Positions 3,083-64,000 of a DNA stretch of 64,000 nucleotides are shown one piece after another. The position numbers and the translations under genes were made by a program. Where the stretch lies: positions 37,002,548 through 37,066,547 of the forward strand of contig OZ025253.1 of NCBI GenBank assembly GCA_964019135.1, read 5' to 3'. Source of the DNA: Arenicola marina (Eukaryota > Annelida > Polychaeta > Arenicolidae). The notes under the pieces were generated by a model that had not been told where the DNA came from, searched no databases, and saw only the letters and a list, made by a program, of their open reading frames with translations. Numbering within the stretch: position 1 is the stretch's first letter; each line of letters begins with the position of its first letter.

Positions 3083-6000
3083 CGGCGGTTCCCAGATTTC
3101 TCCTACATCACCAGAGAAGGTCGCCTTACTGAATTTTTGGATTGTGTAATTATAAGGTATAGATATGTTCTACCCATATATATCTATGCAAGAGTGCATG
3201 GAAGACAGTCATATGATATGCACTAGCTTATATTGTCGTTACCTATTGGCCCTTCTAATAATTGTGCTTATACTTGAACTATTAGTGCAAAATTAATTTT
3301 CCATCTACATGAGTGTCAAATGTTGGCTGGTGTGTTCATATTTAAATGGAAATCAGGCTCCTGCATAAATATCTGGTGACCTACTCTTTGTTCGCTGTGG
3401 CCTAGTCATCAAACTGAGTAGGTTTTTTTATATGTACCTAGATCTACCTCTCCAATTAATACCTATTCTGATTATGTTTTTGTATTTTTTAATTTTTGTG
3501 CAGTCATTTTCATCTGGATCACTGCGGTGCCCTACCACACATGTCGGAGATGATTGGCTACGATGGACCCATCTATATGACGCACCCCACCAAGGCTATC
3601 TGCCCCATACTGCTGGTGAGTGCTTAACAGGCCCCTTCACTTAACTATCACCAGAAACAAGAACCTTGATACGTTTAAGATTGGATTGGGCGAGTTGGAG
3701 GCGGTTACACGCGGAAGACACTGCTAAAACATCTGTAACCAGTTTTTTATTTGCCAGGGATCAGATGCTTGGCCATAGTATGTGGTATGCCGGCGTTTCC
3801 CAAGCCAAATAATGCGCTCTGTATGGGCAGATCACGTGGTGTACCTTAAGTCCCTGTGCTGCATCATTTATCTTATGGCAAGCCATTCATGGCAGTGTAC
3901 TTATCAATTACGAAGTTGAAATAATGTATCTGGTACTTGTTATTGTATTATTGCCAAAATTTCTGTTACGGAGCGTCATACCTGCATGAGATTCTGAAGC
4001 GCTGACTCTTATTAATAGGCAACAGTGTTAAATGCGCCTATGGTCCACTTTCAAGTGCGTATTGGATGCGTAAAATGATGCCTAAAATGATACCGGAGTC
4101 ACGAGTATTTCAGTTTACCTACTAAAAATTAAATTTACTTTATTGAAACATATGTACCCTACTATCATAATTATATAATCATGGTTTAGTGATCGCTTTC
4201 TCATAACCATTACTCCGATTGGTTCAGTTATTAATGTACTTCTCTGTACATGTTCGTGTGTAGGAGGACTACAGAAAAATTACAGTCGAACGGAAAGGAG
4301 AAACCAACTTTTTCACATCGGAAATGATCAAAACTTGTATGAAGAAAGTTGTTGCTGTGAATTTGCACCAGACTGTACAGGTATGATGTTAGCTATATAA
4401 ACATGACTGCCAAGGCTGCGGCTCGTTGTGCCTACGTTCGGTTGGGTTTTGTTTATGAACATAAATTTTGGGATAGTTTTCACTAGTCATAGTGCAAAAT
4501 GTAAAGCAAGTTGCTTTTAAGCTGAAGTTGAGTTGAAAGAAAAACCACTTATTGTAATGCATCGTTTAGATTCTTACACTTTCCTGGTTAAGAAAAAGTA
4601 AAAATCTAAATCATTATTGTATCTTCATTATTGAGCCTTAGTTTGTCTGTCATTCACCAGGTGGACGATGAGCTGGAGATCAAGGCCTATTACGCTGGCC
4701 ACGTGCTCGGAGCTGGCATGTTCCACATCAAAGTGGGATCTCAATCCGTCGTCTACACTGTAAGTGTTTCATCAGTGTCAATGTTGATATCCTTCTTGTA
4801 AACCCATATTTAAAACACGTCATATTGGTTGTCTGTTACTGATTCCAAGTTAATTGATTGCAATTTATGCTACTGTGCCTAGAAATATTTTTTGGGGGGT
4901 TTTATATATATATATATTTTCAAAGGGCCACCGGAATACTCTGGAACCGCCAATGCGTGCTCATACGGTGTGTGGCTGTCCCTAGCTCCGGTGGTTAATG
5001 GAGCTGCAGACCCAACAGGTCCTGGGTTTGAATCCGGGCCGGGCACCTAATTTCGGGCATGTTTCATTAATTCCTTATTCGTCGTCCGGGGAGGTGTCCT
5101 TGTTTGCTAAACATAACGTTCGTTTCGGTCAGGTGGTTAGTTGGTTGTATATTCAGGACGCTTTAACAGATTCTGGTCATATCGTGTCAATGGGAGAAGG
5201 AAGGGAGAGCGGAGCCATGTCCCCATTGGAGGGGAATGTGTGACATGAATGTGTTCATAGTCTCCGCCAGATGGAGTTCAATGTGCCACTACGCCTAAAA
5301 CACGAATTAATTTTATTTCACCCGATGGTGTAATTCATCTGCACAAACGGGGCTAAATTTGTTTTCGTCATCCTTAACGAGACTTCTGCCACCATTGTAG
5401 TCTTGATGTGTCAAAGTTTTCTAAAACTCCCATTTGTGTTTTTACTATTTGCAGGGTGATTATAACATGACTCCGGACCGCCATCTGGGCGCCGCCTGGA
5501 TCGACAAGTGTCGTCCGGATCTCCTCATCACGGAGTCCACGTACGCCACCACGATTCGGGACTCGAAGCGATGTCGGGAGCGCGACTTTCTGAAGAAGGT
5601 TCACGATTCAGTCGAGAAAGGAGGCAAGGTGAGGGCAGGATCCGTTGCCATGGGAGCAGTGAATGGTGCATTGGTTGTCATGGTAGCAGCGAGGGGCGCA
5701 CTGGTTGCCATAAGAGTAGCGTGAGACGCACTGGTTGCCATAAGAGTAGCGTGGGACGCACTGGTTGCCATAAGAGGAGCGGGGGACGCACTGGTTGCCA
5801 TAAGAGTAGCGAGGGACGCACTGGTTGCCATAAGAGTAGCGAGGGACGGACTGGTTGCCATAAGAGTAGCGAGGGGTTCACTGGTTGCCATAAGAGTAGC
5901 GAGGGGTTCACTGGTTGCCGTAGAAGTAGCGAAGGACGCGTTGGTTGTCATAGCAGCATAAAATGCATTGGTTGGCATGGGTACAGTAAGACCCCCATTG

Positions 6001-9000
6001 GTTGTCATGGTGACCATGGCGGATAACTCTTGTGATAGATCACATAAACTAAACTACGACCAATGTATGTCATTGTTGGCGGTGCCATGGAAACGATTGT
6101 TCAGGTGACGGTGAATGAGCTCACTCAGTATGAGTTGTATAGTGCCTTTAACCTTTAACCTAACTGGTTTGAAGATGAGAAATACAGTTTGATCATTTTA
6201 TTGCATTGTATGCCATACGCTTGGAGCGTTGTACATTGTACTCACCACCCTTCTGACGATGATTTGACGATGTTCTCCCAGGTCCTGATCCCGGTCTTTG
6301 CCTTGGGACGAGCCCAGGAACTGTGCATCCTTCTGGAAACTTACTGGGAGAGAATGAACCTTAAAGTGCCTATCTACTTCTCACTGGGATTGACAGAAAA
6401 GGTATATAGTTGCCGCGTATTTCTAGTATGCAGCGAGATTCCTGGTCCAGTTCTAGTAATCTGGCTGAGCTGCGTAACCAACAGGTCATGGGTTCGAAGC
6501 CTGGCAGTCCACTTAATTTGTGTTGGCCCAGTTATGCCTTCGTGTACTCAACAATGGCATAACAAAGAGTCATTTCATATATTTTGATATGTGTGTTGGC
6601 AAATATACTTCAACGCGGTTGTAACGTTTTTTGGTATGGGTGATGTGTTGATGTATAGAGCAATGGTGGTAGCTCTCTCTCTTTATGTTATGTCCTTGGA
6701 TGTTTAAAATCTTCAGTTATTTATAAATGCATAGGGGTGTTCTTTGGCGATAGATATGTCATGTACTGTGACTCATCTGACGTATCCGCTTTGGTTTGAA
6801 ACAGGCCAATCACTACTACAAGATGTTTATCACGTGGACGAACCAAAAAATCAAAAACACGTTCGTCTCAAGAAACATGTTTGAATTTCAACACATCAAG
6901 GTAGGTGGCGCGGACAATGTCATGCCTGCTGATGATCTTGTTGTAGTGAACGTCAGTTAAAATTAAATTACCATTAGAATAATTACAAATTAAAAGTATA
7001 AAATAATTACAAATTAAAAGTATATAATAATTAAAACTGTTAAACAAAACTGTTAAGCAAATAAAACTGTTAAATAAATTAAAATAATAAAAAAAAAAAA
7101 AAAAATATTAAATAATAAAAATTGTTAAAAATTGTTAAACAATGAACATTGTTTAACTGGTTAAACAATTAAACGGTTAAACAATTAAATTGATTAAACA
7201 ATTAAATTGGTTAAACAATTAAATTGGTTAAATTAAAATTTCCAGCCGTTTGAGAGATCGTTTGCCGATAACCCGGGGCCTCAGGTGTTGTTCGCCACTC
7301 CCGGCATGCTTCATGGTGGACTGTCGCTGCAAATCTTCAAGAAGTGGTGCACGAATGCCAACAACATGGTACGGTGTGGTTCATGCTGGGGTCAGCGCAG
7401 CTTGTGAAAATATCATCAACTACTCGAGATTCGTACAACATCCAATTGGAGACCTTGTTGTGTTCTTATGGTTTGTTTTTAGTTTACTGACGCAGTTGAG
7501 ATATCCGGTATTTGTTACTGCATATTGTTAAACGTTCTGTTACAGAGCATGAGTGTCTTAAATGTCTCTGTGGCCCAACGTTTGATAGAATTAAACAAAT
7601 ATGTATATATATATACATATCTTTTTATTCTTATTTCACAATGGTATATTGTACACGTATTATTGTTTCTAAAGCGCAAACAAACCTGTTGCAATGTTGT
7701 TTTTGTATTTGTCCAGATCATCATGCCTGGGTACTGTGTGGCTGGTACTATAGGCTGGAAGATCCTCAACGGACAGAGGAAACTGGAACTGGATAACCGA
7801 CAGATCGTACGTGTCAATGTGCCATTTTTGCGCTGGCTTAGCGATGTTGCTTATCACGTTGTATCAGTATTTTGGCAGACAATAGCGGTTTTCTCGCAAC
7901 TGCCGAATGCGGTGTTGTTTCCGCTAGGTGTGGTTACCAGGGAGTTATTAGAGGCATCAGGTAGAAATCAATTATTGCGTCAAGTGTGAGCTAGGGAAAA
8001 ACAACGTATGTAGTATTTACAATACACTTGGGGAGGCGCCCCTCCCTACACCATCGTGGTTGCTGTCCCTGGCTTCACTTCCATTTGTTTCCTTTGACTG
8101 AGCTGCCAAAATTAATTCTTCCATATAATAATCATGCAATTATATTGACATAATTAATAATCCCAAACGAGATGAATGTGTGACTATGTTGCTTTCTGTT
8201 GTACTGATTTGGGCTCCTCCGCATTGGGGTAATTTCCGCAACTCGTGACCCTGTGTGGCCTGGTGTTCGGAGTCTCCGCCAGGTGGAGGTGAATGTCTGT
8301 AACTTGGTGTTCGGAATCTCCGCCAGGATGTGGTGACTGTCTGTGTGACGTGATGTTGGGAATCTCCGCCAGCTGAATGTTAACTTCTGTGTGACTTGCT
8401 GTTCAGAATCTCCGCCAGGTTGCGGTGAATGTCTGTGTGACTTGCTGTTCGGAATCTCCGCCAGGTTGCGGTGAATGTCTGTGTGACTTGCTGTTCGGAA
8501 ACTCCGCCAGGTTGCGGTGAATGTCTGTGTGACTTAGTTTTCGAAATCTCCGCCAGGTGGAGGTGAAGATGTCGGTGCAGTACATGTCCTTCAGCGCCCA
8601 TGCGGACGCCAAAGGCATTATGCAGCTGATCCGACACTGCGAGCCTCGCAACGTGATGTTGGTGCACGGAGAGGCCTCCAAGATGGAGTTCCTCAAGAAG
8701 AAGATACAGCAAGAGTTCGGTGAGCGAGCCAGAGGGAAACTGGGGGAAGATTATTGGGTTATTTGTGGACGGAGCTGGGGAGAGATACAGCAAGAGTTTG
8801 GTGATGGAGCCCGAGAAAAACTGGGGGAAGATATTTGGGTTATTTTTGGATGGAGCTGGGGAGGGATACAGCAAGAGTTTGGTGAGGCAGACAGAGGGAA
8901 TTTCGGTGAGGATTTTTAGGTTATTTTTGGATGGAGCTGGGAGAGATACAACACGAGTTCGGTAAGGAAGCCAGATGGAATTTGAGAGAAGATGCTTGGG

Positions 9001-19571: not shown

Positions 19572-19577
19572 TTTATT
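19572..19577 (-). terminator. candidate polyadenylation signal of the neuropeptide gene
   Basis: TTTATT on the + strand reads AATAAA on the - strand, about 495 bp past the stop codon at 20072. It is the nearest canonical signal I noticed. Confidence 0.35.
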
Positions 19578-20071: not shown

Positions 20072-20227
20072 CTAGTAGCAGGATACCAGCGACCAGTAGC
20101 ATGGTTTCGTCTTCTTGTACGTCTTCACGCCTCTCTTTAACGAGTCCTCAGCATCGGGGTCACTGAGTGCATTCACCAGCAGGTCAAACAGACTGGGTTC
20201 GCCGGGGGACGACTGGTGGGGCTGCAG
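20072..20227 (-). CDS. terminal exon with the mature C-x6-C peptide
   Basis: The acceptor reads CTCTATTTCAG|CTGCAG. There are 51 codons and a TAG stop at 20074-20072. The acidic spacer LFDLLVNALSDPDAEDSL precedes a dibasic KR site, and the 19-residue product GVKTYKKTKPCYWSLVSCY follows. An internal KK could yield a shorter TKPCYWSLVSCY. The exon is too short and ATG-less to appear as an ordinary ORF. A disulfide between the two cysteines is expected from the family. Confidence 0.8.
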   Translation of the reverse strand: MQPHQSSPGEPSLFDLLVNALSDPDAEDSLKRGVKTYKKTKPCYWSLVSCY

Positions 20228-23200
20228 CTGAAATAGAGAGTAAGACCGTATAGTGAGGAGCTATGAACAATGACGGTGAATTAAAGCTTTGGTGCCACGT
20301 TGGTATCGTTGGAGATAGACAAAGAAACGCGTGTTTTCAATAACATGCTATATATATAATACGTTGGCTATACCAGGATGTAGCTGAAAAACGCATTCAT
20401 CAGATCAGCCAAACCGCATGAGGTCCGCCTGTTTATTTCTAGGGCCATTGCATGCAATAGCGTTAGACGGTTAAAATTATGTAACCTGACCTAAATCGCC
20501 CTGTGAGCCTTTCAATCGTTGCCATAGTGACCTTGCGTAGAACAATGAAACATGGCCTGACACGAATACGAAATCTGGTTATTGATTTAAACCGCCAATG
20601 TATATTTATAGAAGCCATGAAAGGACCGTACGATACTTTAGACCACTTCGCTAATCGTAGTTCCAATTTTGCCACCGTGAGGCGCCACTGCATGTGCAAT
20701 GCATTCTGGGTATTATTTTGGTCTTTGCGAGATGTCAAGATGGCGTCATCGCATGACAACGTATTTTGTAGACATTTTAACATGAAATAGTGTCATCTAT
20801 GTAACGTTGAAAGAATAGAGTTTATGGTGGATATCCGGCGATTGGCTCACAGGGACCATTGAGCCACTTGTTAGAATGTATTTTCTAGTACTTCAAGAGC
20901 TGTAATCAAAGATGTATGTTTATAGGTTCAGGATATATGTGAGGTAACTTTAAATTCAACTCGTACAAATAATAGTGCGAGTTTTTTCAGGGCGATAAGC
21001 GTTTTATTGCCCCTTCATCAGGCTGATGTCGAGTCAGTAAACTTAGCAAAATCATGAAATAATCTATATTGCTGTAATAAATAGTCGGCGAAGAAACTGA
21101 ATAAACTGAAAAAGGTGGAATGCGCTACCACTATGCCTGGGGCACGGGGTTCAATTGATGATTACTCTGTTGTATAAACATGTCATTTTGGAGACAAACT
21201 CCTTAGGAGTACCAGTTTCAACGAAAAATCATTCGCCGTTGGCCTTTGCTAGTACTTAACAAATCGAAGGTTACACCCTGACCTACTATTTAGTAGCTCA
21301 TTTGAATCTCGAGTTTGCTTTCCTAGACTAACCTAGCCCGGCCAATGTCTATGTTTTTTGCAGGCTATATAGCAATATGTTTTGTAATTTTCCTGTTACT
21401 AATCTCTTCTTCATGTCAAATAAGTATATTATGTGAAATTAAATCCTGAAGGCCTGTGGGCTATCCGGAGAGAAGCACATGTGTCCACCGGAGCAGACGT
21501 TGGCGGCCGGCTTTATATCCCTGCGCGCCTGTTCGATGCTCGGTATTCTGTGTGATGTCAACCGCGATTCGCCAGGACGTCCGCTTGCGATAAAATAGTC
21601 CCCGCAGTTTGATGTTGAAATTGTTGTTTTACAGACTCAACGAGATATAAAACAAATAAGCACCATAATTTGGAGATAGGCTTAGTCTTGATCCTAAAAT
21701 TAAAAAAAAATCTAAGATGGCGCTTGTAAGTAGCCTGCGTTAAAGATACCAGGGGTCGTATTCATAATCCCCTAGTAAGTTACGTACGAAAAGAGCGTTT
21801 TCGTCTTAGCCTCACCAGCTCGTTGTGTTGGTGCTTATGATGAAAAAATTATCTTACAATTTTAGCACTTTCTTAATTAAGAAAATCCACTTCTTGTGTG
21901 ACTACTTTTGTGCCTTGAACCCGATAATCGCTCCACAAATCTTCCGCTTAGCGCTAAGTCTGGTAGCGTAGCCTAAGTGGCGATTATGAATACGGCCCCA
22001 GGTCTTCCTTCGCAAAAAGTGAGGGACGCCATGAAGGAGACAAGCTAGGTTCCTCGCTACTATGACCTTTCTCATTGCGGTGATATGATCCACAGCGTTT
22101 GAAGCGTTCCACGGAAGCCGAACCAACTAACCATCCCTCGTGTGATCATGTTCTTAGATAGTTACTATTTACTATTCACATGGAAGTGGATATAATTGTC
22201 TGTAATAAAGATCTTGAAGTAGGCGTATCAATGGATCCATGCTTGTCATGGAGGCATAAAACAATAAAACCAGCCCTTGCCGGATCGGAATATGGCGTGT
22301 TTGGCCACGTAATACAAGTCGACAACGTCTACAAACAGGACCCCCTGAAGATCCACGTACCAGTGTGAATCTGCGCATCCGGGACATGACAACCACTCGG
22401 AGGTGCATGCTGGGTAAGACTCCCAACCAGACCATGCAACAATATATAAGAACAAGCATCAATTGTTCAGATAGTTTTATCCCTTCTTGACTTGGCCGTT
22501 GCATGGGCTATACCATTGACATTTAGGGGGGGGTCGGGAGGGTCGTCGGGTCGGGTGGGGGAGTCGGGGGGGGGGGAGAGTCGGGTGCGGCGGGCGCGGG
22601 CGGGGGGCGGGTGCGGCGGGCGCGGGCGGGGGGGGGGGGCGGGTGGAGAGGGCTGGGTGGTGGTGGAACAATGGCTGTCCGTCCAGGCGATTGGATGCCA
22701 GATTGGATTGTTATTGTCCTTAAAGTGCTAATAACNNNNNNNNNNNNNNNNNNNNNNNNNNNNNNNNNNNNNNNNNNNNNNNNNNNNNNNNNNNNNNNNN
22801 NNNNNNNNNNNNNNNNNNNNNNNNNNNNNNNNNNNNNNNNNNNNNNNNNNNNNNNNNNNNNNNNNNNNNNNNNNNNNNNNNNNNNNNNNNNNNNNNNNNN
22901 NNNNNNNNNNNNNNNNNNNNNNNNNNNNNNNNNNNTCGCTATGGCAGCCCCCTTCTATTATGACGTGGGTTTCCAAGGAAACCGGCAGCTTGGGACCCCT
23001 TGATTGAGTCTCAGGTGGAGGCAGTTGGTGGGCCGTGCGCGTCGTATGATATTGTTAGTGGAAACACCAGCCTCCTCACTACCACTCCCCCCCCCCACCC
23101 CCGTCGGACCCCCCTTCCAAGCATCACCCCCCCCCCCAGTCAGTCCCCCCTTCAAAGCACACGCACCCCCCCCCCACGCGCGCACGCACAATCTCTGCCT

Positions 23201-26200
23201 GCACCGTACTGTCCTCCTATATGGGGCCCGCCCCCGTTGTGACGTCTTCAATCAAACCCCTCACCCTCTTCTTCCCCTACTCCGCCCCCCCCCCTCCACC
23301 GCTTGCTACCCTAAACCCTAGCCCTCGTTCTCATCTCATCTGTCCCTCTACGTCATCATCCACCGCCACCCCAAATCCCGACCCCCACTCCCAACCCGAC
23401 GCCCCCCCCCCGCCCCCCCCTCCCCCACCCCCGATCCCCAGCGACGCCCCCGGTATGTCATTTCCATGGTCACTAGACTCAGATTAAGAAGATGCCACAC
23501 GCAAGTTTTATATCGCCGCCAGGGAATCAAACTGCCCGAGAGATTTGGGACAATCATCATAAATCGACCGTCAACAGGTCAATACAGGACCTGTGCGAAT
23601 CGTGGATGCGTCGGTCAGTCAGCGTGGCTCTTTGATACGAGACCTGGACCCTAAAACCCATACAGGTCCGACATAGAAGTCAAACGTGTTCAGACCAGGC
23701 GACGCTCAGATAACATGGAACCCCCCCCCCATGCGCATGACCAGATGTCTCTAAGCTGGGACAAGTAATCTGGATAAAAAAATGTAATGGCATAATCGTG
23801 GGCATAGCTGCATATGGCAACTGGATACCAACTACACCTGAAAACGTTATGCATTATTCTTCTTGTTTCTACATGCTTCGCATTTGTACTAAAATAGTTG
23901 GGTGCAGATAATTTAGGTTAAGCGACGAATGTATAATTAATGTCGCATTGTTTTGCGATTCCCGGAATCCGCTTTTTTAATACTAAACACGTGAACGCTG
24001 TCACCAACGAAAAAAATTGAATTATAGGGCCTCTGAGTGTGTGGGGGGGGGGGTGTCCATGTTGCATGTCCATTTGAAGAAGAAGTTAATGCTGCGTGTC
24101 GCTAAGGCTTGTGTCGCATGTCGATTTTAAGGCAGCCCCAATGTCGCGTTGTCGAGTTTAAACCTCGCCGTGTCGCCGTGTCGCCGTGTCGCAAAAGGGC
24201 CTCTGGGGCCCTATGTATGATGGTTTATAATTAACGTAAGCAGAGAAGGAAGATCAACTGGTTTAATCAGTTGAAAAATGTTCAAAGCAATAATCTGTTG
24301 AGATGAAGAAATGTCAAGATATATCCTAGATGGTTGGAAATTCTTTAGATGCGTAATACAATGTTGAAAAATGCGCCACATAACTTTCAGGATTTTCAAA
24401 ACACTTATATAACATTGCTTCAGAAACAGTTTCAGAAACATAATCCAGTTTCCTATTGATATGACACATGACATTATAACCATCACGCCGGCAGAAATAT
24501 TACTGACAAAATATAAACAACAAAAAAACGATATTACAGAATTTAAGGCATGTATTGAATTGTCGCAATTCTGCAGAATCTGTCACATTGCAATGTATGG
24601 AGTCGACGCCTCTCAGGCTAAGGGTAGCAGAGAACCATGGTGTAGGAGCCTCCTTTGTTGGGGGAGGTCCAGGGCGCAATTACCCGGCAGCATTTCACTA
24701 AAAGGGGTCGTCATGGAATCCGTGGGAAGCTCTTAGCTATGTATTGATATTTTTTTCTAAGTGCGACATTGTCGTGATCTGTCACGATAGTCATGATAAA
24801 AGCTATCGACGCATAAAACCAGGGTTGTGTGCAAGCAAACGGAAAGGAGGAAATGGCCTAAGTAGAACATTAACCGTAGTTCTGGTTATTCGCGTGGTTA
24901 GATATACTGTATATGAATATATATATATATATATATATATGCACTGATATGCACAGAGATGGGAAATATAGATATGTGCAGATATATATATAAACTCGAC
25001 TAATATGTAATAACTGGTATATATAATTATATATAGGCACAGGTAGACATAAAAATATAGTTGGATATAGATATGTATTTAAATCGATGACTGGATAGAC
25101 ATATAGTACAGATAGGTAGATATATATGATGACGAATAGATTGTCGTGTTACCTTGCACATTAGCGCTAAACCGGAAGTCGAATAAAAAAACCTGCCGCC
25201 TGACGTAAACCCCCCCACGGCCCTTTCACTAAACGCTCGTCGTCATAACGACATTGAATAGAATAATAAAACATATTACGCCAAAAAAAAAAGAATTGTA
25301 ATAAGTAAAGTGCCACGTTTCGTGAACATATATGGAAGCAAGGGACCCAGAATATGAGTGTGTAATGTAAGTGGGCAATGTGAGTGGGCAATGTGGGTGG
25401 GCAATGTGAGTGGGCAATGTCAGTGGACAATGTGAGTGGACAATGTGAGTGGGTAATGTGAGTGGGCAATGTGGGTGGACAATGTGAGTGGGCAATGTGA
25501 GTGGGCAATGTGAGTGGGCAATGTGAGTGGGCAATGTGAGTGGGCAATGTGAGTGGGCAATGTGAGTGGGCGATGTGAGTGGACAATGTGAGTGGGCAAT
25601 GTGAGTGGGCAATATGAGTGGGCAATGTGAGTGGGCAATGTGAGTGGGCAATGTGAGTGGACAATGTGAGTGGGCAATGTGAGTGGACAATGTGAGTGGA
25701 CAATGTGAGTGGGTAATGTGAGTGGGCAATGTGGGTGGACAATGTGAGTGGGCAATGTGAGTGGGCAATGTGAGTGGGCAATGTGAGTGGGCAATGTGAG
25801 TGGGCAATGTGAGTGGGCAATGTGAGTGGGCAATGTGAGTGGACAATGTGAGTGGGCAATGTGAGTGGACAATGTGAGTGGACAATGTGAGTGGGCAATG
25901 TGAGTGGGCAATGTGGGTGGACAATGTGAGTGGACAATGTGAGTGGGCAATGTGAGTGGGCAATGTGAGTGGGCAATGTGAGTGGGCAATGTGAGTGGGC
26001 AATGTGAGTGGGCAATATGAGTGGGCAATGTGAGTGGGCAATGTGAGTGGACAACGTGGGTGTGCAATGTGGGTGGACAATGTGAGTGGACAATGTGAGT
26101 GGGCAATGTGAGTGGGCAATGTGAGTGGACAATGTGAGTGTGCAATGTGAGTGAGCAAAGTGAGTGAGCAAAGTGAGTGGGCAATGTGAGTGGGCAATGT

Positions 26201-29200
26201 GAGTGGACAATTTGAGTGGGCAATGTGAGTGGATAGTGTGAGTGGGCAATGTGAGTGAGCAATGTGAGTGGGCAATGTGAGTGGACAGTGTGAGTGGACA
26301 ATGTGAGTGGACAATGTGAGTGGGCAATGTGAGTGGAAAATGTGAGTGGACAGTGTGAGTGGACAATGTGGGTGGACAGTGTGAGTGGGAAGGTGATTGG
26401 CAATGTGAGTGGACAATGCGTGTGGACAATGTGAGTGGGCAATGTGAGTGGGCAATGTGTGTGGACAATGTGTGTGGACAATGTGAGTGGGCAATGTGAG
26501 TGTGCAGTGTGAGTGGACAATGTGAATGAGCAACGTGAATGTGCGATGCGATCAATATGCTTCATTGGTCGCCCGAAATCCCCAGTAAACAGGCAATAGA
26601 AACTTGGACGTACGACAATCAAACGATCCAAACCTCATGTATACGGCGTCATCTTCACACATCCCCATTGCCCCCCCCCCCGTCAACCACCATCCCACCC
26701 CGTACCCATATACCAGCCTTTACCATCTCGTACTCTCCGACTCCCCCCCGGACCCCCCGACCGCACCCGCATATATATGTGTCCAACCGCCCCCACCCCT
26801 CCACCCCCTCCACTTTGACTCCTGCGCACCAGCTCATCCTAACCACGACTCCCAACCACGACAACCCCCCCCCCCCCCACATCCCCACCCCCTTCACCCA
26901 TCATCGCCTTTTTCGCGGATGCATTAATCAATTAATGCTGAGCAGGGCGACGAGAGCAGTGTGTCAATGGAGTGAAACTGACGCTCTCTGTGCCTTTCAC
27001 ACACATTGCTCCTGTTTTGCACACCTGCACGGTGAATATATCCACGCAGGTTACGGGCTATACCTTCCTAGCAATCCTTGTGACGTGTTACGCCCCTGGG
27101 CCTTATTCTCTCCCACGCAGGCGCGGATCCAGGATTTTGAAAGACAGGTGTGTGTATGGGGGGAGAGGGTTGGGGGGGGGGGGGGAGGCACGCCTAGGTT
27201 GGCGTACAGTTTGCATGGAAAAAAAATGGCATCCTTGCGGGAAAAAAAAGGAAGGGGTGGTCAGGACACCCAGGACACACCTCCCCCCCCCCCCCCTCCT
27301 CCCTTCACCCACTAGACGCTTCCGTGGCCCCGTCACTCCCACGCACGTAGGTGGACACTCACCTACACGCATAATCTATACCCCTTTGCTTCAAAGGAAA
27401 ATCACTTGTGGTCAAGTCAAACACTCTCACGAGCTCCATTTGTTAGTCGATGTCATTATTCAGTCGCATATCCTCAAACAAGAATGCCTATGGTAGCGCC
27501 CTCTATAGGGAGGGTGTCCAAGGGTAAGTGCTATAGCACGTGGTCGCGTCACAGCAATGGCAGTACGCTGCACTACAGCGTTTCATGAAGGCGCCATATA
27601 TCACAGCGGCGGATCCAGCATGTTGTCAAAGGGGGGCATAAATCTAAAAAAAAGGGATGCACGGGTCATTTTGACATCTAAATAGCGCCGAAAATGGAGG
27701 AAATTTTACGCCGTAAATGGGGGATCACGTGTCCCCAGTATACCCCTGGAGCCACCATTGCTGATAGATAGATATTTAAATGTATATATATATACAATCT
27801 CACGGTTTGAAAGGCAATGTTGAATTTGTTGCGGTAGAAATAGGTAGAAGGGTGCGTAGAGCGTGTCTTGGATGGGCCATTGACGTGTGGGAGAATTAAA
27901 GCTCACGGTCGTATATTATTCGGGTCTATGGATTGATAGAATTGTATAATGTCCAATCTGTGCTTTACTAAAGAGTACCACATACACTTAAACCCATTTA
28001 ATCTGAACATAGCATGGATGTATGCCATGCAATAATGGTAGATGACATGCGCCACAGCAATACGATATCAAACGCTACAGAACTACCCAGACTGCGCCAA
28101 ATGTGAATAAAAAACAGCCAGAGATCATACAATGTCATATTTACAATGGCAGAAACATATTTGACCTTGATCAAGTGCAAAAGTCTGCAACTCACACAAC
28201 TGCCAGTAAATATTTATGCATAATACGGATGCACCCGAAGAACCTTTGACTAGACAATAGACGCCCCCCCCCCACCATCCGCCCCCCACCCCATAATTTG
28301 TCTAACTTTGGCTATATAGCCATCCTACGGCAGACATCCACGGGTCTCTCTCGCTCTGTACATATAACACGCGTATATAATGACGATGAATGGCCTTCCT
28401 CCTGAGCTTCACTGACGCGATGCATTGTGGGGGATTGCGCATCAATCCATAGCGCATTCAATGGCCATTGCCCAGGTGCATTTACCATTGCGGTCATCCT
28501 TTTAGGCCTAATGCCTGTTTAGCTTGCGATTGTGTGGCTTTAAGCCTTAAAATGGCTGCTGATTGGGAATACCAGAGGTAAGTGTCGAGCGGCAGTACAT
28601 TTCCCGGTATATATCTATGTATGTATGCATGTATTATGTAGTAGTACAGCTCCCCCGTGACGCATGCACGTATGTTATATCCCCGCCTGTACGCTGGCAT
28701 ACAACCATGACAATGGCACACACAATAAAGTCGTTATTCCAAGCTGCTCATAATACTATTTTCCACCTTTATAATGAACTTCCGAATATTGTTTGTTAAG
28801 CTTATGCTTGGTGTAGCATTGTTTGAGCTTGGTTCCTTCAGAGATGCATGCGTAGTCAACTATACATCTATATCAAACGACAAAACACGGTGGCAGTGGC
28901 CACCTTTGGATGACGTAGTACCCAAGGAAGCCATACAGAAAAAACCTAAATGCAATATTTCTGATTGAACAATCAAGTAAAATCACGGGGAATTGTCGCA
29001 CGTGAACCTTTAAGTGGTTACATGGGTTTAAAGATGATAGCGGCCATATGTCACGAGGGGCATATATATCTGATCCTTAATATATAAGGTCCATAGTATA
29101 TAAATATATGCATTTCCTACCAAATGGCGGAATCATAAATGGAGCTTCGCGACTGCATACTAGCATTGAAAATGCAAGTCGTATTCCGTACCATTACTGT

Positions 29201-32200
29201 GTAAACGATATCATAAATACCTCATTTCTATTGTTTAGCCAGAAGTTCTTCCTTAAGCCATTTTAACACGTTTAACATTTGTCATGTATGCACAATGATG
29301 ACCTAAACCACCAATCCCTTTAACTAGTATTTAGCAATTAATTTTCTGCAGTCTCCAACCTAACAACTATCCATTGGTCTTTGGACACGTGTACATAACC
29401 ACGTGGCCATGGTCCACGAGCTTGTGAGATCAAGGCATACTTAAGGCGGATAATGAGGCCCGTTAAGGGTCATCTCATATGAGAAACAGACCCACTTCGG
29501 CTTGACCTCTCTCGGGGGAGGCACTTGGATTCCCTTCAGGAATCTAATGCTCCTAATTGGAGACGGGATGAGGTTTGTTTTATGACATGCGCCACCGCTG
29601 TACACAAATCATGGATCCGTCCTTTAGGGAAATCAAACCTTGACTGATCTCTTTCTTTAATCTCCGCTTTGACCTTAGAGAGTATTTTCACAATATCTCC
29701 ATTTTCACGGTATATATCTGATGGTTTAAATGGGGCGTATCATACGAAAGCCCTCGTGAGTCCTCCACAGCCACTCACCACAGCTCTTATCCCCACCCTC
29801 ACTCTCACCCTCACCCCCTTAGAGGCACCCTTGGTTACTTATTATTGTCCCCTTGGTTTTACGTCTGATAAACGGAACATGTGAGGCATATATATTCAAC
29901 CCCTGGGTAAGTCACTCCGAGAAGAGGTTTGAAGGGAGATTGATACACATTCAGTCAAACGATTATATATATTACACGTGGAATGGAATGGAATGTTGGT
30001 GTTTTAGGCCACTTTTGTGCACATACAGGCTAAATTGGGCCAAGGAACCTCCCGAGACGATGAAGGATGAAGGAATGAAACATGCCCCAGATTAGGTGCC
30101 CGAGCCCGGATTCGAACCCAGGACCTATTGATCTGCGGTCTAGTGCGCTAACCACTACACCAGGGAGGCCCCCAGGACCTATTGATCTGCGGTCTAGTGC
30201 GCTAACCACTACACCAGGGAGGCCCCCAGGACCTATTGATCTGCGGTCTAGTGCGCTAACCACTACACCAGGGAGGCCCCTTTATTACACGTGGCAATCC
30301 ATATGCAATGTGTATGTGTATTACCACGTGTGTTTATACGGATTGCAGCGGTCGATTCGTACTGGTAGTAAGTTAGCATAAGAAGGTTGTGTTTCAATAT
30401 GAGAGATTACGAGACGCTAAATGCGATATAAAATGTGATACAAACTGGAGATCATTTCACACTAGATTACGTGACACAAGGTTACGTGACACGAGATTAC
30501 GTGACACAAGGTTACGTGACACGAGATTACGTGACACGAGATTACGTGACACGAGATTGCGTGATATGAGACACGAGGTTATTTGACACGTGACTGTTCG
30601 ATATGGAATCATGTGACACAAGAATATGTGACACTTGACAAGATTATGTGACCATAGATATTAATGGGCGAAATCGCGTAACGTGATATACGTGACACAA
30701 TATTATGTGAGATTACGTGACCTGAGATTACGTGACCAGAGACTACGTAACGCGATATCTTTTGGCGGCTCAACTGCACATCGCATCATTTGACATCATC
30801 ACGACTGTCGTAACCCCCTTTCAAAGAGTTTAACCCCATCTGGGTCCGAACAATTAATGCCGTGCCAATCCCCAGCACAGCGATGGAAACATAGACACAT
30901 AACAGAGGAAATATCGCCTGCAGGACTCCGATCTAGAGCGTGATGGCTGGCTCGTGTCCCCTCTTGAAATGGCCCCCCAGATCCCACCATCGGAAATGAC
31001 AGACAGGGTTGGTGGTGCCTGGGACTACGACCCCACGGGTTGCCTTTTCTACCCGGTCCAGCCCGACCGACTGGCCTGACCGTACCAGGGCAGTTAGCGG
31101 CCATTTCCCGACATCAGTCTCAAGTAATTTGAGCGCAATGAGATTTCTCGGCGTCACAGCCACAAATAGAAGTTTGCATCAAATGGTGTGAGGAAAAGGA
31201 CACATGAAGGACACGTGGTGCGAAATGTTGTGTTAAGGCGACTGTTGCAACAAGATATATTCACGCACAAATGATCGGCCAGGCTGCCATCCCATGTGTG
31301 GTGACGTCACTCCATGTGTGGTGACGTCACCCCATGTTTGGTGACGTCAGCACATGTGTGGTGACGTCAGCACATGTTTGGTGTCATCAGCACATGTGTG
31401 GTGTAATCCTTATGAATGTGATCTGAATGGGCAAAATGTATAAGGAGGTGTCTCTGGAACGCCCCAATCTTACCCATCCTATAGTACCAACATCTCTGTA
31501 CAACTAGGAGCCATCCACGTAAGTTGCCCGAATTTAGCTATTATTGTGATGACGAAAATCCTTAGGATCGACCCCTTTCCAGCTTGGAACTTGACCCAAT
31601 AGCGTACCAAAATGCACACAAAATGGCAAAAATGAGTGTGTAAAAGCCTGAGACATTTGTGACAGTGGTGCACTTTACGTACTATTTTCACACGTTATAA
31701 TCGTTGATAAGATAAAGAAAGAACACATAAACAACAACGCTTAATGCATTTGTAACGTATAAGGTCAGGGATATGCCAGGAAGCACAGAATGTGCGAAGG
31801 GGGGGGGGGCAGATATACCCTAGGGTCTGATAGGGGGTCAACGTGCCCCTTTGTGTGCCCCTGGAGATGCCCTTGCGTATGACAAATATGTCACATTTAT
31901 ATAGCGCACTTATAACAAAAAGTATTCAAGAGGTCGTGTTATGTGCAACTTTTGCTACGATACCATTTGCACTTCATGTTAGTATGGTGCAGTTTTGTGT
32001 AGAAACCAGTCTCAGGATACACACTTGCGTTCCTGTACTACAGCAGGGGAGACCGGGGCAAGTAGGCCCTCGGGGTACGTTAGCCCACATCGATTTTTTC
32101 GACTTTACACCCCTAAAGCACCAAGTTGTGTCATGTGATGCGGTCATGTGATGAATGTTTTACGTCCCAGACTTTTTTCATCAAGATCGAGCTGCGCGAC

Positions 32201-35139
32201 GAACAGTTTGGCGGGAAATGAACTTTTTCTGCCAGGTAAGTAAATAACAGTTCCGCCATGTGTTCTTCGCTTTTCAAGTATGTCCTGTAGAGTTAGAAAA
32301 TGAATAATGTACCGAAAGTCATGTACTATATGCGCCTAATTTTGATTACAAATTGAAGACTCTAACTTCTAGTCCAATTCATATTTCTTGCATCCAAATA
32401 TAGCAGACACGTTTGGGGCACATCCACCCGCTTGTGTCCGGGCAATTTGGCCCACTGGGCGAACATGCCCCGGTCGTCTGGTCTAATGTACCCCATATGC
32501 ATAACATGGAGCATCTATACAACGTTCACACAATGGAAAGGTGGCCCTAACATAAGACTGACAGCCCTACCTGATGCAGACACTGCTTTATACATGACCC
32601 CAAAGATCTTCAACAATAAGTTACAGCCCTTGCTGCAAGACTCGTCCGCAACACAGACGTAATAATGAGGGATCGGGATTCTACATATAGTAATATGATG
32701 GGACAGCTTACTATTCAATTCAGATTTAAGATTCAATTACCAAATAATATTGATATTAGTATAAACACCTTGTAAGTCAATCATAAAGGCGAGTTATATA
32801 GTAGCCTATATATAGACATACCTAGTTTGATTTTGCAGGATGGTCCGGAATTATGTACCGAAAAGCACATAATAACACTATTTCTTAGTGGTGACGGTGT
32901 CGCAGCACACTACGCTGCAATTGTTCCTACTCCCTCCGTTTCAGAGCCTGCTACTATCATTTCAAAGCCTGATCTCATCGTCACCAAGCCTGCTAAAGTG
33001 TCTTAAGGACCAACCGGATCTTCGCGAAGACCGTTTTGCGCAGCAGAGCGGAAATTAATTCTCGCCCATTGTTCAGCCTCATCCTAAGGCTCCGCACAGG
33101 AAGTTAACGACCAAGAGTAGAAAACAAAGACGAGCTGCAATCCTAACCGATACACCAGAAAAAGAAGCTATCGAAGCCGAAACACGCAACAGAAACAAAA
33201 GGCAAAGGAAACTTATCGGTGTTACAAAAGAAAAGACTAAATCAAAAACAGGTAAAGAACCCAAAGCAAAGAGAAGAAACAGAATGAAGCGAAGAAGAAG
33301 CCATTCGTCTAGTGATGATTCCTCTGAATATTTCTGTCTTGTGTGTCCTCACCATGGTCAGAAAGCAGGAAAGGAGAGGTGTGGGTGCAATGCGCATCAT
33401 GTAACGACTGGTCACACAGAGAATGTACATGGATGGAGTCCCCTCTCTACGTATGCCACAATTGCAACTCTGATCACGGTTCGATTTTTACCAAGTAATT
33501 CCGAGTAACTTGTAGCGATCCAAGTGTTTTGTTAAAGCAATATGCTTACATGCGCCATCTTAGATTTTTTACATTTTAGAATCAAGACTAAAGTATCTCA
33601 AAATCTATGATGCATATGTTTTTATATCGCTTTGAGTCTGTAAAACAAACATTTCAACATAAAACTGCGAGGTTTATTTTTATCGCGCGCGGACGTGATA
33701 GCGAGCCGCGGTCGACATCACACACAAAATAGCGAACTGCGAACAGGCGCGTAGGGATATAAAGCCGGCCACCAACTTCTGCTCCGTTGAACAAAGTGCT
33801 TCTCTCCGGATAGCCCGCAGGGTTTCAGGATTTAAACTCAAGACAGAGTGTACGTATTTGACATGGAGAAGAGGTTGGTCATACAAAAAAATACGGAATA
33901 TATTGCTTTAAAGATTTCGTTGGTTGTGTCTAGATTGTTTAAGATAACGTTGTATTACTAATAAAAAAAAGGGTGTAAGACGGACGAATTATTTGCGTTT
34001 TGTACCAAGGGCGTACTTGCCCCGCGGGTTGGGTCTACGTGCCCCGTCACGGGGCACATTAGCCCTTGTCGGGTGCCTCTGCTAAACTGCAAACTACAGG
34101 AAAAACAATTGACGGAAACAAACTAAACAGGGTCCAAAATACAGCTACATAATACAGCTGTCACCTAACAAAAAATCAGACAACATGCTTTAACCTTAGC
34201 GCATCTATGGGCCTTAATGTAAAAATGGAGCGAACGTGCCCCGGTCTCCCCTACTGCCACTAACAAGTCTGTTGTTATCAGAATCCGTCTCTTAGATCAA
34301 GCTCCATCAACAGCCCATGCTACCCTTTCGTATATTAGCCTTCCTATTCAGTCATTATGCAAATTGGATGAACCTTAGTGGCACTTTCAGCTTGTTGAAT
34401 GACATAACGTCAAACCTGTTGTACATTAGATGAATGATTCTACTAACACTCCTCAACGTAATCAGTCATGTGAGTAAATCATAAAAAGGAAATACGGAAA
34501 GTCATTGTTCTGAATGCGAACTGTTACTGATAAATTATGAATAAATCATTAAAGCAATATACTTACATGCGCCATTTTAGAATTTTTACATTTTAGAATC
34601 AAGACTAAAAGTATCTCAAAATTATGATGCATAGATGTTTCATATCTCTGGGAGTCTGTAAAACAACAATTTCAACATAAAACTTCGCGGTTTATTTATA
34701 TCGCGCGCGGACGTGATAGCGAGCCGCGGTCGACATCAGACACAAAATACCGAACAGCGAACAGGCGCGCATGGATATAAAGCCGGCCACCAACTTCTGC
34801 TCCGATGACCAAATTGTTTTTCTCCGGATAGCCCACAGGCTTTCAAGGTTTAAATTCAGGGATACAATATACCTATTTGACATGGAGAAGAGGTTGGTGA
34901 TATAAAAAATTACAGAATATATTGCTTTAAAACCATACCTGTTCTTTGTTGATGTCGTTGAAAGCAGGGTCTGATAGGATGTCTCTCTGCTCTCTGCGAA
35001 GCATCCTCCCCGCTGGAAGGTACCTCCCCTGGACCGGTGTCGTGAGTACCGCCGCCAACAACACTGCCGCCACGAGCACTAAGAACAGTTGTCCTCTCGG
35101 CGCGAATACACTGTGGTTGCTTGATTTCATCATGTTCAT
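20072..35139 (-). CDS. allatostatin-C/somatostatin-type neuropeptide precursor, two exons joined across a 14.7-kb intron
   Basis: Exon 1 (35139-34939) encodes 67 residues: a start, a hydrophobic signal segment (about residues 18-34) with likely cleavage after VQG, then RYLPAGRMLRREQRDIL and on to DINKEQ, ending in phase 0 at CAG|GTATGG. Exon 2 (20227-20072) begins after TTTCAG in phase 0 and encodes 51 residues. The last part reads KR, then GVKTYKKTKPCYWSLVSCY and stop. The joined precursor is 118 residues, a usual size for allatostatin-C precursors. The ring C-x6-C with aromatic residues after both cysteines matches the spacing of the arthropod CYFNPISCF peptide. No Gly precedes the stop, so the C-terminus would be a free acid. 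Joining the two exons is an inference from matching phase, signal peptide and strand; an extra exon between them cannot be excluded. It would act as a secreted ligand of a somatostatin/allatostatin-C-type GPCR. Confidence 0.65.
21367..21745 (+). mobile_element. diverged copy of the TTAA MITE family
   Basis: It matches, in the opposite orientation, the elements at 33532 and 34549: AGCAATATGTTTTGTAATTT, CTTCTTCATGTCAAATAAG, GGGCTATCCGGAGAGAAGC, GGCCGGCTTTATATCC, CGCGCCTGTTCG and TAAGATGGCGCTTGTAAGTA. The ends have drifted, so the terminal repeats are no longer clean. It is older than the other two copies. Confidence 0.85.
21751..22001. mobile_element. MITE-like element with inverted ends GGGGYCGTATTCATAATC
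   Basis: The left end reads AGGGGTCGTATTCATAATC and the right end CGATTATGAATACGGCCCC, which are inverted repeats. The interior has further palindromic words (CTTAGCGCTAAG) and no coding potential. The length is about 250 bp. It sits directly between a TTAA MITE copy and a SINE A relic. Confidence 0.8.
22002..22135 (+). mobile_element. decayed 3' part of SINE A
   Basis: TCTTCCTTCGCAAAAAGTGAG, then CATTGCGGTGATATGATCC and AAGCGTTCCACG with CCAACTAACCATCC at the end follow the order of SINE A bodies but are heavily substituted. The tRNA-like head is missing, apparently replaced by the MITE to its left. Confidence 0.55.
22520..22660. repeat. G-rich low-complexity tract
   Basis: Dense G runs (GGGGGGGG, GGGTCGGGTGGGGG, GGGCGCGGGCGGGG) lie just left of the assembly gap and could form G-quadruplexes. 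Open frames here (R/G-rich or P-rich) are compositional. Confidence 0.85.
22736..22935. other. assembly gap (200 N)
   Basis: Exactly 200 consecutive N, a conventional placeholder length, flanked by G-rich and C-rich low-complexity sequence that probably stopped the assembly. The true length is unknown. It lies inside the proposed neuropeptide-gene intron. Confidence 1.
23080..23460. repeat. C-rich low-complexity region
   Basis: Runs of 6-10 C separated by short CT/CA-rich spacers (CACTCCCCCCCCCCACCCC and similar) extend to about 23450. The pyrimidine bias leaves several + frames open (Pro-rich) without coding support. Confidence 0.85.
25370..26540. repeat. 12-bp minisatellite, about 97 units
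   Basis: The + strand unit is GGCAATGTGAGT, with variants GGACAATGTGAGT, GTAATG and AATGTGGGT. A block near 25435-25640 recurs at about 25675-25870, showing higher-order duplication. Because 12 is a multiple of 3 and the unit lacks stops on the - strand, three - frames stay open for 400-460 codons of HCPLTLPTHIAHS-type sequence; these are not genes. Confidence 0.95.
27117..27345 (+). mobile_element. CGGATCCAG repeat family copy
   Basis: GGCGCGGATCCAGGATTTTG opens a segment with G-rich and C-rich arms around TTTGCATGGAAAAAAAATGG. The same opening word occurs in variant form at 27603, 37648 and, reversed, 43290, so this is a dispersed non-autonomous family. Boundaries on the right are approximate. 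Confidence 0.5.
27603..27768 (+). mobile_element. short CGGATCCAG-family element with imperfect inverted ends
   Basis: The left end CAGCGGCGGATCCAGC and right end CCTGGAGCCACCATTGCTG are imperfect inverted repeats about 165 bp apart. The interior has GGGGGGCATAAA and GGGGGATCACG and no coding potential. Confidence 0.55.
28552..28577 (+). other. speculative short first exon
   Basis: ATG followed by codons for AADWEYQR runs into AG|GTAAGTG, a perfect donor, after a CTTAAA-rich leader. No downstream exon was found, and it is antisense within the proposed neuropeptide-gene intron. A chance match is likely. Confidence 0.1.
29982..30282 (-). mobile_element. SINE B with triplicated 54-bp head and 12-bp target-site duplication
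   Basis: Read on the - strand: the head CTCCCTGGTGTAGTGGTTAG occurs three times at a 54-bp period (copies of GGACCTATTG on the + strand at 30121, 30175 and 30229). A single B-box GGGTTCGAATCC and the usual body and CATTCCATTCC tail follow. TATTACACGTGG flanks it at 29970-29981 and 30283-30294, so the element was inserted as one unit or the head expanded in place afterwards. Confidence 0.93.
30455..30765 (+). repeat. 15-bp ACGTGACACGAGATT minisatellite
   Basis: Seven clear units between about 30467 and 30560 (alternating ACGAGATT and ACAAGGTT) are followed by more diverged GTGACA/ATTACGTGACC copies to about 30755. The array lies in the proposed neuropeptide-gene intron. Confidence 0.88.
31293..31412 (+). 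repeat. 20-bp CATGTGTGGTGACGTCA repeat
   Basis: About six units of CATGTGTGGTGACGTCACCC or its CAGCA variant. Four contain the CRE palindrome TGACGTCA; the last ones decay to GTGTCATCA and GTGTAATCC. Confidence 0.88.
33076..33510 (+). pseudogene. C-terminal relic of a pogo-type transposase
   Basis: One frame reads TKSRKQRRAAILTDTPEKEA, then a Lys/Arg-rich nuclear-localisation-like stretch and EYFCLVC. A +1 shift then continues as a Cys/His zinc-binding module: GEVWVQCASCNDWSHRECT followed by YVCHNCNSDH. This ILTDTPEK plus CxxC...WxxCxxCxxWxHxxC order is typical of the tail of pogo-family transposases. The frameshift and the missing DDE core make it a pseudogene. Confidence 0.7.
33532..33911 (-). 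mobile_element. TTAA-bounded MITE, copy nested in the pogo relic
   Basis: A 380-bp element with ends TTAAAGCAATATG and ATATTGCTTTAA (inverted). It is about 85 per cent identical by eye to the 34549 copy, including GCGCGCGGACGTGATAGCGA and GGCCACCAACTTCTGCTCC. A TTAA at each end suggests a TTAA target-site duplication. It interrupts the transposase relic just after its zinc module. Confidence 0.9.
34549..34930 (-). mobile_element. TTAA-bounded MITE, copy abutting the neuropeptide exon 1 donor
   Basis: A 382-bp element with perfect 13-bp inverted ends TTAAAGCAATATA / TATATTGCTTTAA. Its right end stops about 8 bp from the 5' splice site of the - strand neuropeptide exon (34939). A short - strand ORF inside it (from 34883) is shared with the 33532 copy but has no recognisable homology. 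Confidence 0.92.
34939..35139 (-). CDS. signal-peptide exon of the neuropeptide precursor
   Basis: ATG is at 35139 within a GAAATGAACATG context, with further Met codons at residues 3 and 4. Residues 18-34 are strongly hydrophobic (LFLVLVAAVLLAAVL). The donor CAG|GTATGG is at 34938. Without splicing the frame would stop after three codons, at the TTAA where a MITE begins. The TATA box at 35331 and about 160 bp of 5' leader support a true first exon. Confidence 0.7.
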
Positions 35140-35330: not shown

Positions 35331-35338
35331 TATTTATA
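35331..35338 (-). promoter_or_regulatory. TATA box of the neuropeptide gene
   Basis: The - strand reads CGTATAAATAGACA, close to the metazoan TATA consensus, about 195 bp upstream of the ATG. Transcription would start near 35300. CCAATCAG (35531) and CCAATCGG (35585) boxes and a CACGTGGGCGGG element (about 35556) lie 200-250 bp further upstream in a locally GC-rich stretch. Confidence 0.55.
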
Positions 35339-43869: not shown

Positions 43870-45492
43870 ACGATACCGTGGTACCGAGTACCATAGAGGA
43901 CACCGCTGTACCGAATATCATATGGATGACATCATTTTACCGAGTACCACAAAGGACACAATAGTACCGAGTACCATAGAGGACACTATAGTACCGAGTA
44001 CCATAGAGGACACTATAGTACCGACTACCATAGAGGACACTATAGTGCCGAGTATCATAGAGGACACTATAGTACCGAGTATCATAGAGGACACTATATT
44101 ACCGAGTACCATAGAGGACACTATATTACCGAGTATCATAGAGGACACTATAGTACCGAGTATCACAGAGGACACTATAGTACCGAGTACCATAGAGGAC
44201 ACTATAGTACCGAGTATCATAGAGGACACTATAGTACCGAGTACCACAGAGGACACTATAGTACCGAGTACCACAGAGGACACTATAGTACTGAGTATCA
44301 TAGAGGACACTATAGTACCGAGTAACACAGAGAACACCATAGTACCGAGTATCATAGAGGACACTATAGTACCGAGTACCACAGAGGACACTATAGTACC
44401 GAGTATCACAGTGAACACTGAAGTACCGAATATCATAGAGGACACTATAGTTCCGAGTATCATAGAGGACACTATAGTACCGAGTATCACAGAGGACACT
44501 ATAGTACCGAGTATCATAGAGGACACTATAGTACCGAGTATCATAGAGGACACTATAGTACCGAGTATCATAGAGGACACTATAGTACCGCGTATCATAG
44601 AGGCAACTATAGTGCCGAGTACCACAGAGGACACTATAATACCGAATATCATAGAGGACACTATAGTTCCGAGTATCATAGAGGACACTATAGTACCGAG
44701 TATCACAGAGGACACTATAGTACCGAGTATCATATAGGACACTATAGTACCGAGTATCGTATAGGGCACTATAGTACCGAGTATCATAGAGGACACTATA
44801 GTACCGAGTATCATAGAGGACACTATAGTACCGAGTACCACAGAGGACACTATAATACCGAATATCATAGAGGACACTATAGTTCGGAGTATCATAGAGG
44901 ACACTATAGTACCGAGTATCACAGAGGACACTATTGTACCGAGTATCATATAGGACACTATAGTACCGAGTATCGTAGAGGGCACTATAGTACCGAGTAT
45001 CATAGAGGACACTATAGTACCGAGTATCATAGAGGACACTATAGTACCGAGTATCATAGAGGACACTATAGTACCGAGTATCACAGAGGAAACTATAGTA
45101 CCAAGTATCATAGAGGACACTATAGTACCGAGTATCATAGAGGACACTATAGTACCGAGTACCATAGAGGACACTATAGTACCGAATGTCATAGAGGACA
45201 CTATAGTACCGGGTATCACAGAGGACACTATAGTACCGAGTATCATAGAGGGCACTATAGTACCGAGTATCATAGAGGACACTATAGTACCGAGTACCAT
45301 AGAGGACACTATAGTACCGAATGTCATAGAGGACACTATAGTGCCGAGTATCACATAGGACACTATAATACCGAGTATCATAGCGGACACTATATTACTG
45401 AGTATCACAGAGGACACTATAGTACCGAGTATCATAGAGGACACTATAGTACCGAGTATCATAGATGATATCATTTTAATCGAGTACCATAG
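43870..45492. repeat. 27-bp minisatellite, about 60 units
   Basis: The unit is ACCGAGTATCATAGAGGACA followed by CTATAGT, with T/C and A/G variants (GTACCATAG, GTATCACAG). A block of eight units (216 bp) beginning near 44620 recurs at 44836, showing segmental amplification. With a period of nine codons, the + frame (PSIIEDTIV) is open to 44737 and a - frame (SSMILGTIV) is open across the whole array and beyond. There is no splice or promoter context, so it is not treated as a gene. Confidence 0.95.
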
Positions 45493-49585: not shown

Positions 49586-59791
<10,206 letters not shown>

Positions 59792-63900: not shown

Positions 63901-64000
63901 TGGCCGTACAACTCTACAGAAAGTAATGACCAGACACATGGCAATGGGCCATGCAGCCCTATAGGCAATAATGTCACTATCTATGGAAATTGGCCGTACA
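60950..64000. repeat. 90-bp satellite, about 33 units, running off the window
   Basis: The unit includes GGGCCGTCCAGCTCTAGAGA, AAGTAATGACCAGACACATG, GCAATGGGCCATGCAGCCCT and ATAGGCAATAATGTCACTAT. The period is exactly 90 with no indels from about 61090 to the end, so one - frame stays open for more than 1,000 codons (30-residue repeats with CLVITFCRAGRPISIDSDII). Unit variants recur in blocks of 7-8 units (630 and 720 bp), indicating higher-order amplification. It lies upstream of the TMEM26-like exon at 59791, probably in its first intron. Confidence 0.95.

Follow-up and report, generated by a model that had tools for sequence, protein, structure and literature searches.

Does this stretch of the Arenicola marina genome encode a cyclic neuropeptide of the allatostatin-C (AstC) type, and, if so, is the gene of a new kind? 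The window, by which we mean the whole 64,000-base stretch that was analyzed, lies at C6:37002548-37066547 in an assembly of 867,369,267 bases in 762 contigs. A sequence-only reading had proposed that two distant exons on its minus strand form one undescribed-looking neuropeptide gene. Both exons were found where they had been claimed, and both junctions are in phase 0. The gene and its candidate signals are as follows.

Coding exon 1: 35139-34939, minus strand; 201 nt, 67 codons, with the start codon, a signal-like N-terminus and the first part of the propeptide
Intron, phase 0: 20228..34938, minus strand; 14,711 bases, splicing predicted
Coding exon 2: 20227-20072, minus strand; 51 codons plus TAG, with the rest of the propeptide, a KR site and the cyclic peptide at the C-terminus
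Predicted mature peptide: 20075..20131, minus strand; 19 aa, GVKTYKKTKPCYWSLVSCY, processing and disulfide predicted
Candidate TATA box: 35331..35338, minus strand; TATAAATA, a motif match about 200 nt before the ATG
Candidate poly(A) signal: 19572..19577, minus strand; AATAAA, a motif match about 495 nt after the stop

In the window DNA, exon 1 reads MNMMKSSNHSVFAPRGQLFLVLVAAVLLAAVLTTPVQGRYLPAGRMLRREQRDILSDPAFNDINKEQ and runs into the phase-0 donor CAG/GTATGG. By hydropathy, its N-terminus has a strongly hydrophobic core (mean Kyte-Doolittle value of 3.32 over 12 residues). Exon 2 begins directly after the acceptor ...ctctatttcag and translates as LQPHQSSPGEPSLFDLLVNALSDPDAEDSLKRGVKTYKKTKPCYWSLVSCY followed by the stop. 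Its frame opens 11 codons further upstream, at 20260, and this extension contains no Met, so the peptide requires an upstream exon. The translation thus bears out the claim of a 51-codon exon that lacks an ATG and ends in KR, the 19-mer and a stop. Joined, the two exons encode a precursor of 118 aa whose C-terminus is KR-GVKTYKKTKPCYWSLVSCY. The proposed TATA box fares less clearly: the motif TATAAATA does begin at 35338, but it is one of four on the minus strand between 18000 and 36500. AATAAA occurs eight times over the same interval, and neither motif is rare. Within the intron, 1,868 bases are tandem arrays, and a run of 200 N at 22736-22935 is probably an assembly gap.

The rest of the window holds parts of other genes and many repeats. 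An exon of the Integrator complex subunit 11 gene (INTS11) lies at 5440-5640 on the plus strand. A second segment of this gene probably falls within 6159-6584 on the same strand, where a weak Beta-Casp match is below the Pfam cut-off. The region 5440-6584 is separated from the stop codon of AstC by about 13.5 kb. On the minus strand, two frames at 49589-55333 match TMEM26 well above the Pfam cut-off, and a 478-codon stop-free frame at 56710-58143 is rich in D-V-T repeats and overlaps short tandem repeats. Large minisatellite arrays occupy 2-2952, 25351-26538, 43881-45465 and 61051-63997, with periods of 24, 13, 27 and 90.

The predicted peptide carries features by which AstC is recognized. Its two cysteines enclose six residues (C-YWSLVS-C), as is reported for protostome AstC (PMC7536072, PMC8786951). 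A single Tyr follows the second Cys (SCY) and TAG then ends the precursor; an extra Tyr or Phe at this point is described for protostome AstC (PMC5996578). There is one Cys pair per precursor, behind a KR at which cleavage is predicted. The position of the insect Pro is occupied by L (W-S-L), and lophotrochozoan AstC is reported to have V, L or I there (PMC8851493). The splice sites and phase read from the DNA indicate an intron in phase 0 that interrupts the sequence for the N-terminal part of the precursor, the arrangement stated for human, fly, nematode, scallop and echinoderm genes (PMC7536072). The fly and nematode genes differ in having a second intron, and none was seen in the window gene. 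The ring position that is Phe in insect AstC, the Phe of the FXP motif, is Trp in the window peptide. In Aplysia it is also Phe (PMC8786951) and in scallop it is Val, showing that the position varies within the family (PMC5996578, PMC8851493).

Residue-level comparison covered the AstC of scallop and Aplysia. The reported molluscan peptides (Aplysia, SHYSSMCMFNVVACY; scallop, GHIQCLVNLVACY-amide) are likewise C-terminal, with the pattern Cys-x6-Cys-Tyr, a single copy per precursor and V or L at the insect-Pro position. The last nine residues of the window peptide are identical to scallop CLVNLVACY at five of nine positions (PMC5996578) and to Aplysia CMFNVVACY at four of nine (PMC8786951). Unlike the molluscan peptides, it has Tyr-Trp after the first Cys and a longer, basic tail before the ring, giving 19 aa if cut at KR alone as opposed to 13-15 aa in mollusks (PMC8514136). 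An additional cut at the inner KK would leave 12 aa, TKPCYWSLVSCY. Unlike the scallop peptide, it is not expected to be amidated, because there is no C-terminal Gly.

Ring size, the C-terminal Tyr, the phase-0 intron and the single peptide per precursor thus uphold the AstC/somatostatin-type identity first proposed. From these features we conclude that the window very probably contains an annelid AstC gene made of two exons that a single long intron in phase 0 separates. Weighing against this reading, the precursor bears little resemblance to human prosomatostatin: of 1000 shuffled sequences, 41 reach the score of the whole precursor and 268 reach that of the exon-2 spacer, and the similarity outside the ring was set aside as unconvincing.

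The best surviving alternative accepts exon 2 as a real AstC exon but gives it another first exon, or an extra internal one, and assigns 35139-34939 to a different secreted protein. We scanned for first-exon candidates, defined as an ATG, a hydrophobic N-terminus and a phase-0 donor. Loose thresholds return two candidates on the minus strand and three on the plus strand of the window, compared with 0.33 per simulated 15 kb. Upstream of exon 2, five ATG-donor pairs that use two distinct donors pass, and a second, weaker candidate at 22504-22361 could serve as the first exon. Exon 1, however, combines the best donor with the strongest signal-like segment among the loose candidates. Under strict thresholds, which were chosen after exon 1 had been seen, it is the sole candidate on either strand of the window, and none appears in 200 simulated 15-kb stretches.

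Codon usage was scored with a model trained on 30 receptor frames of the same genome. Exon 2 scores 0.210, a value reached by 127 of 2906 open segments, while exon 1 scores -0.052 (209 of 2102 open segments are as high). The latter is near background, as might be expected if exon 1 belonged elsewhere. Known exons of the neighboring genes vary widely on this scale (TMEM26 exon, -0.035; INTS11 exon, 0.150; another TMEM26 stretch, 0.557), and codon usage is therefore weak evidence for either exon. The length of the intron (14.7 kb) and the run of N within it also leave room for a different exon, but a single phase-0 intron is what the family leads one to expect. Overall, we consider a different exon arrangement unlikely.

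A second alternative is that the gene is of the somatostatin or urotensin type. The ring does contain an aromatic-Trp pair (YW) that recalls the FW of somatostatin, and C6 carries markers of what we take to be the human cortistatin/urotensin-2 region. Vertebrate somatostatin and cortistatin are also reported to be cyclic peptides at the C-terminus of a precursor whose N-terminal part is split by an intron in phase 0. The ring itself argues otherwise: it holds six residues with YWS, not 10-15 (at least 10 with FWK in chordate somatostatin and cortistatin, 10 in the vertebrate peptides), there is no Lys after the Trp and hence no FWK lysine, and an extra residue, Tyr, stands beyond the second Cys. 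Urotensin II and URP genes are reported to have a phase-1 first intron, whereas phase 0 is common to AstC and somatostatin/cortistatin (PMC7536072) and is what we find. A somatostatin or urotensin gene is very unlikely here.

We also asked how often the peptide pattern arises by chance. The ring motif, written as [KR][KR]..C-x6-C-[YF]-stop, has two overlapping matches at a single place in the window, which start at 20137 and 20116 and end at 20072. Sixty simulated windows gave three matches, two of them with at least 40 open codons; with a background of this size the motif alone is suggestive but inconclusive. Pfam matched no family to the joined precursor (one chance-level match, E 4.2), and Rfam gave no match at gathering score in the window. 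In the genome, a 51-residue query found one place only at E up to 0.001; with 23 residues and the limit raised to E 10, the search found the AstC place and one further match, on contig C350 (E 4.0). The latter is a Cys-x6-Cys stretch, CYWPRISC, that we rejected as a chance match: the frame continues beyond the second Cys (GGRPCYWPRISCPGQTG...) and repeats adjoin it. With these two queries, no second AstC copy was found in the 867-Mb genome. That exon 2 is a chance open frame or a pseudogene fragment is highly improbable: the ring motif does turn up in about one simulated window in twenty, a similar stretch occurs by chance on C350 and Pfam does not recognize the precursor, but chance would also have to supply an in-phase acceptor, a dibasic site, an LV-x-CY end resembling that of the scallop peptide and, on the same strand, a secretory first exon in matching phase, all in an intact frame for which no second copy was found.

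The AstC reading therefore stands, but the hint of novelty does not extend to the family. AstC precursors are already recorded for Platynereis, Capitella, Helobdella and Hirudo (PMC8786951; for Platynereis also PMC3890597), and the expression of Platynereis ASTC/somatostatin has been assigned to a sensory neuron within the neurosecretory center (PMC5747525), so this kind of gene was already known in annelids. The exact ring of the window peptide is absent from the main texts of the papers searched; annelid sequences may stand in their figures or supplements.

If A. marina makes an AstC peptide, its genome might be expected to encode a matching receptor. Among the 112 matches listed for human SSTR2 against the genome, two are clearly separated from the others by score:

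L005: C4:16129282-16130142; 44% identity to human SSTR2, 270.8 bits
L006: C6:17554566-17555429; 41% identity to human SSTR2, 244.3 bits

The next match, L007, scores 162.2 bits and is closest to galanin receptors. SSTR2 is the best solved relative of both L005 and L006, and in each the 7TM region lies within one open frame. By this similarity, both are likely genes for somatostatin/AstC-class receptors, and their pairing with the window peptide is putative. L006 lies about 0.5 Mb from a 6PGD gene on C6.

In SSTR2, Asp122 and Gln126 hold the lysine of somatostatin. Aligned to it, both candidate receptors have Thr for Asp122, Trp for Gln126 and Gln for Asn276 (3.32, 3.36 and 6.55, respectively), and so, in contrast to SSTR2, both lack D3.32 and Q3.36. 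Because the ring of the window peptide contains no lysine, the peptide and these receptors are at least consistent with each other. Against a simple pairing of ligand and receptor in annelids, a Platynereis AstC receptor reportedly needs a peptide concentration of about 1 micromolar before it responds (PMC8786951).

The position of the gene bears on how AstC and somatostatin are related. The chromosomes that carry the AstC gene of Pecten and the somatostatin gene of amphioxus are reported to descend from one ancestor (PMC8851493). In A. marina, six Pfam families were used as markers: ICAT, Pex14_N, 6PGD, FRB of MTOR, Enolase_C and PMC2NT of EXOSC10. We take their human genes to lie near cortistatin or urotensin-2 on 1p36. 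Five of the six families were found, and all of their matches fall on C6, the AstC chromosome (ICAT, 1; Pex14_N, 1; 6PGD, 6; FRB, 2; Enolase_C, 12), the weakest being Pex14_N at E 7.6e-6. PMC2NT had no match in the genome; control genomes also gave none, making this marker uninformative. The control family NMT lies on C12, and the 112 listed receptor matches are distributed among 16 numbered contigs, with one on C6. The Enolase_C family includes two adjacent enolase exon sets at C6:23934886-23953034, probably tandem genes, one piece of which has an internal stop.

The AstC locus thus fits a chromosome derived from the common ancestor, and the fit extends to human 1p36 given the positions we assume there. 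This context is compatible with either orthology or paralogy of AstC and somatostatin. One possibility, which we raise tentatively, is that protostome AstC and chordate somatostatin represent a single locus or an old tandem pair, in which the peptide and both receptors changed together. If so, the two would not have arisen by a duplication that put them on separate chromosomes, and the joint change would comprise the loss of the somatostatin lysine from the ring and the replacement of Asp3.32 and Gln3.36 by Thr and Trp in both receptors.

The assembly also includes a mitochondrial contig, C762, of 15,942 bases, on which the recognized protein genes all lie on one strand. The order is cox1 cox2 cox3 nad6 cob atp6 nad5 nad4L nad4 rRNAs nad1 nad3 nad2, with gene names taken from translations except for cox1 (Pfam) and rrnL (Rfam), and with rrnS placed by position. 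In annelid mitochondria, nad6 and cob are reported to follow cox3, atp6 to separate cob from nad5, nad5 to have traded places with nad4L/nad4, and nad3 to stand between nad1 and nad2 (PMC2639372). The order in C762 fits this arrangement, and on this basis the initial idea of an echinoderm, hemichordate or amphioxus source was rejected. About 1.1 kb between atp6 and nad5 contains no recognized gene; in clitellates, maldanids and terebellids, the major non-coding region is reported to occupy this position (PMC2639372).

Taken together, these data suggest how the AstC gene would work. By analogy with the known family, neurons or neurosecretory cells would transcribe both exons, and the 118-aa preprohormone would enter the secretory pathway by means of its predicted signal peptide. 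The C-terminal peptide would then be excised at KR, with a possible further cut at the inner KK. A disulfide between the two cysteines of this peptide would close the ring, as in other members of the family. The product may act on L005, L006 or both, as candidate GPCRs of the somatostatin/AstC class. Its action would be inhibitory if it follows the usual pattern of the family; this is not certain, as a starfish AstC-type peptide is reported to be excitatory (PMC8851493).

An annelid AstC gene leaves the textbook picture unchanged. What the locus would offer is a candidate AstC system in one more annelid, consisting of a peptide gene and two receptor genes, and its context on C6 is a further observation for the debate on orthology versus paralogy of AstC and somatostatin (PMC8851493).
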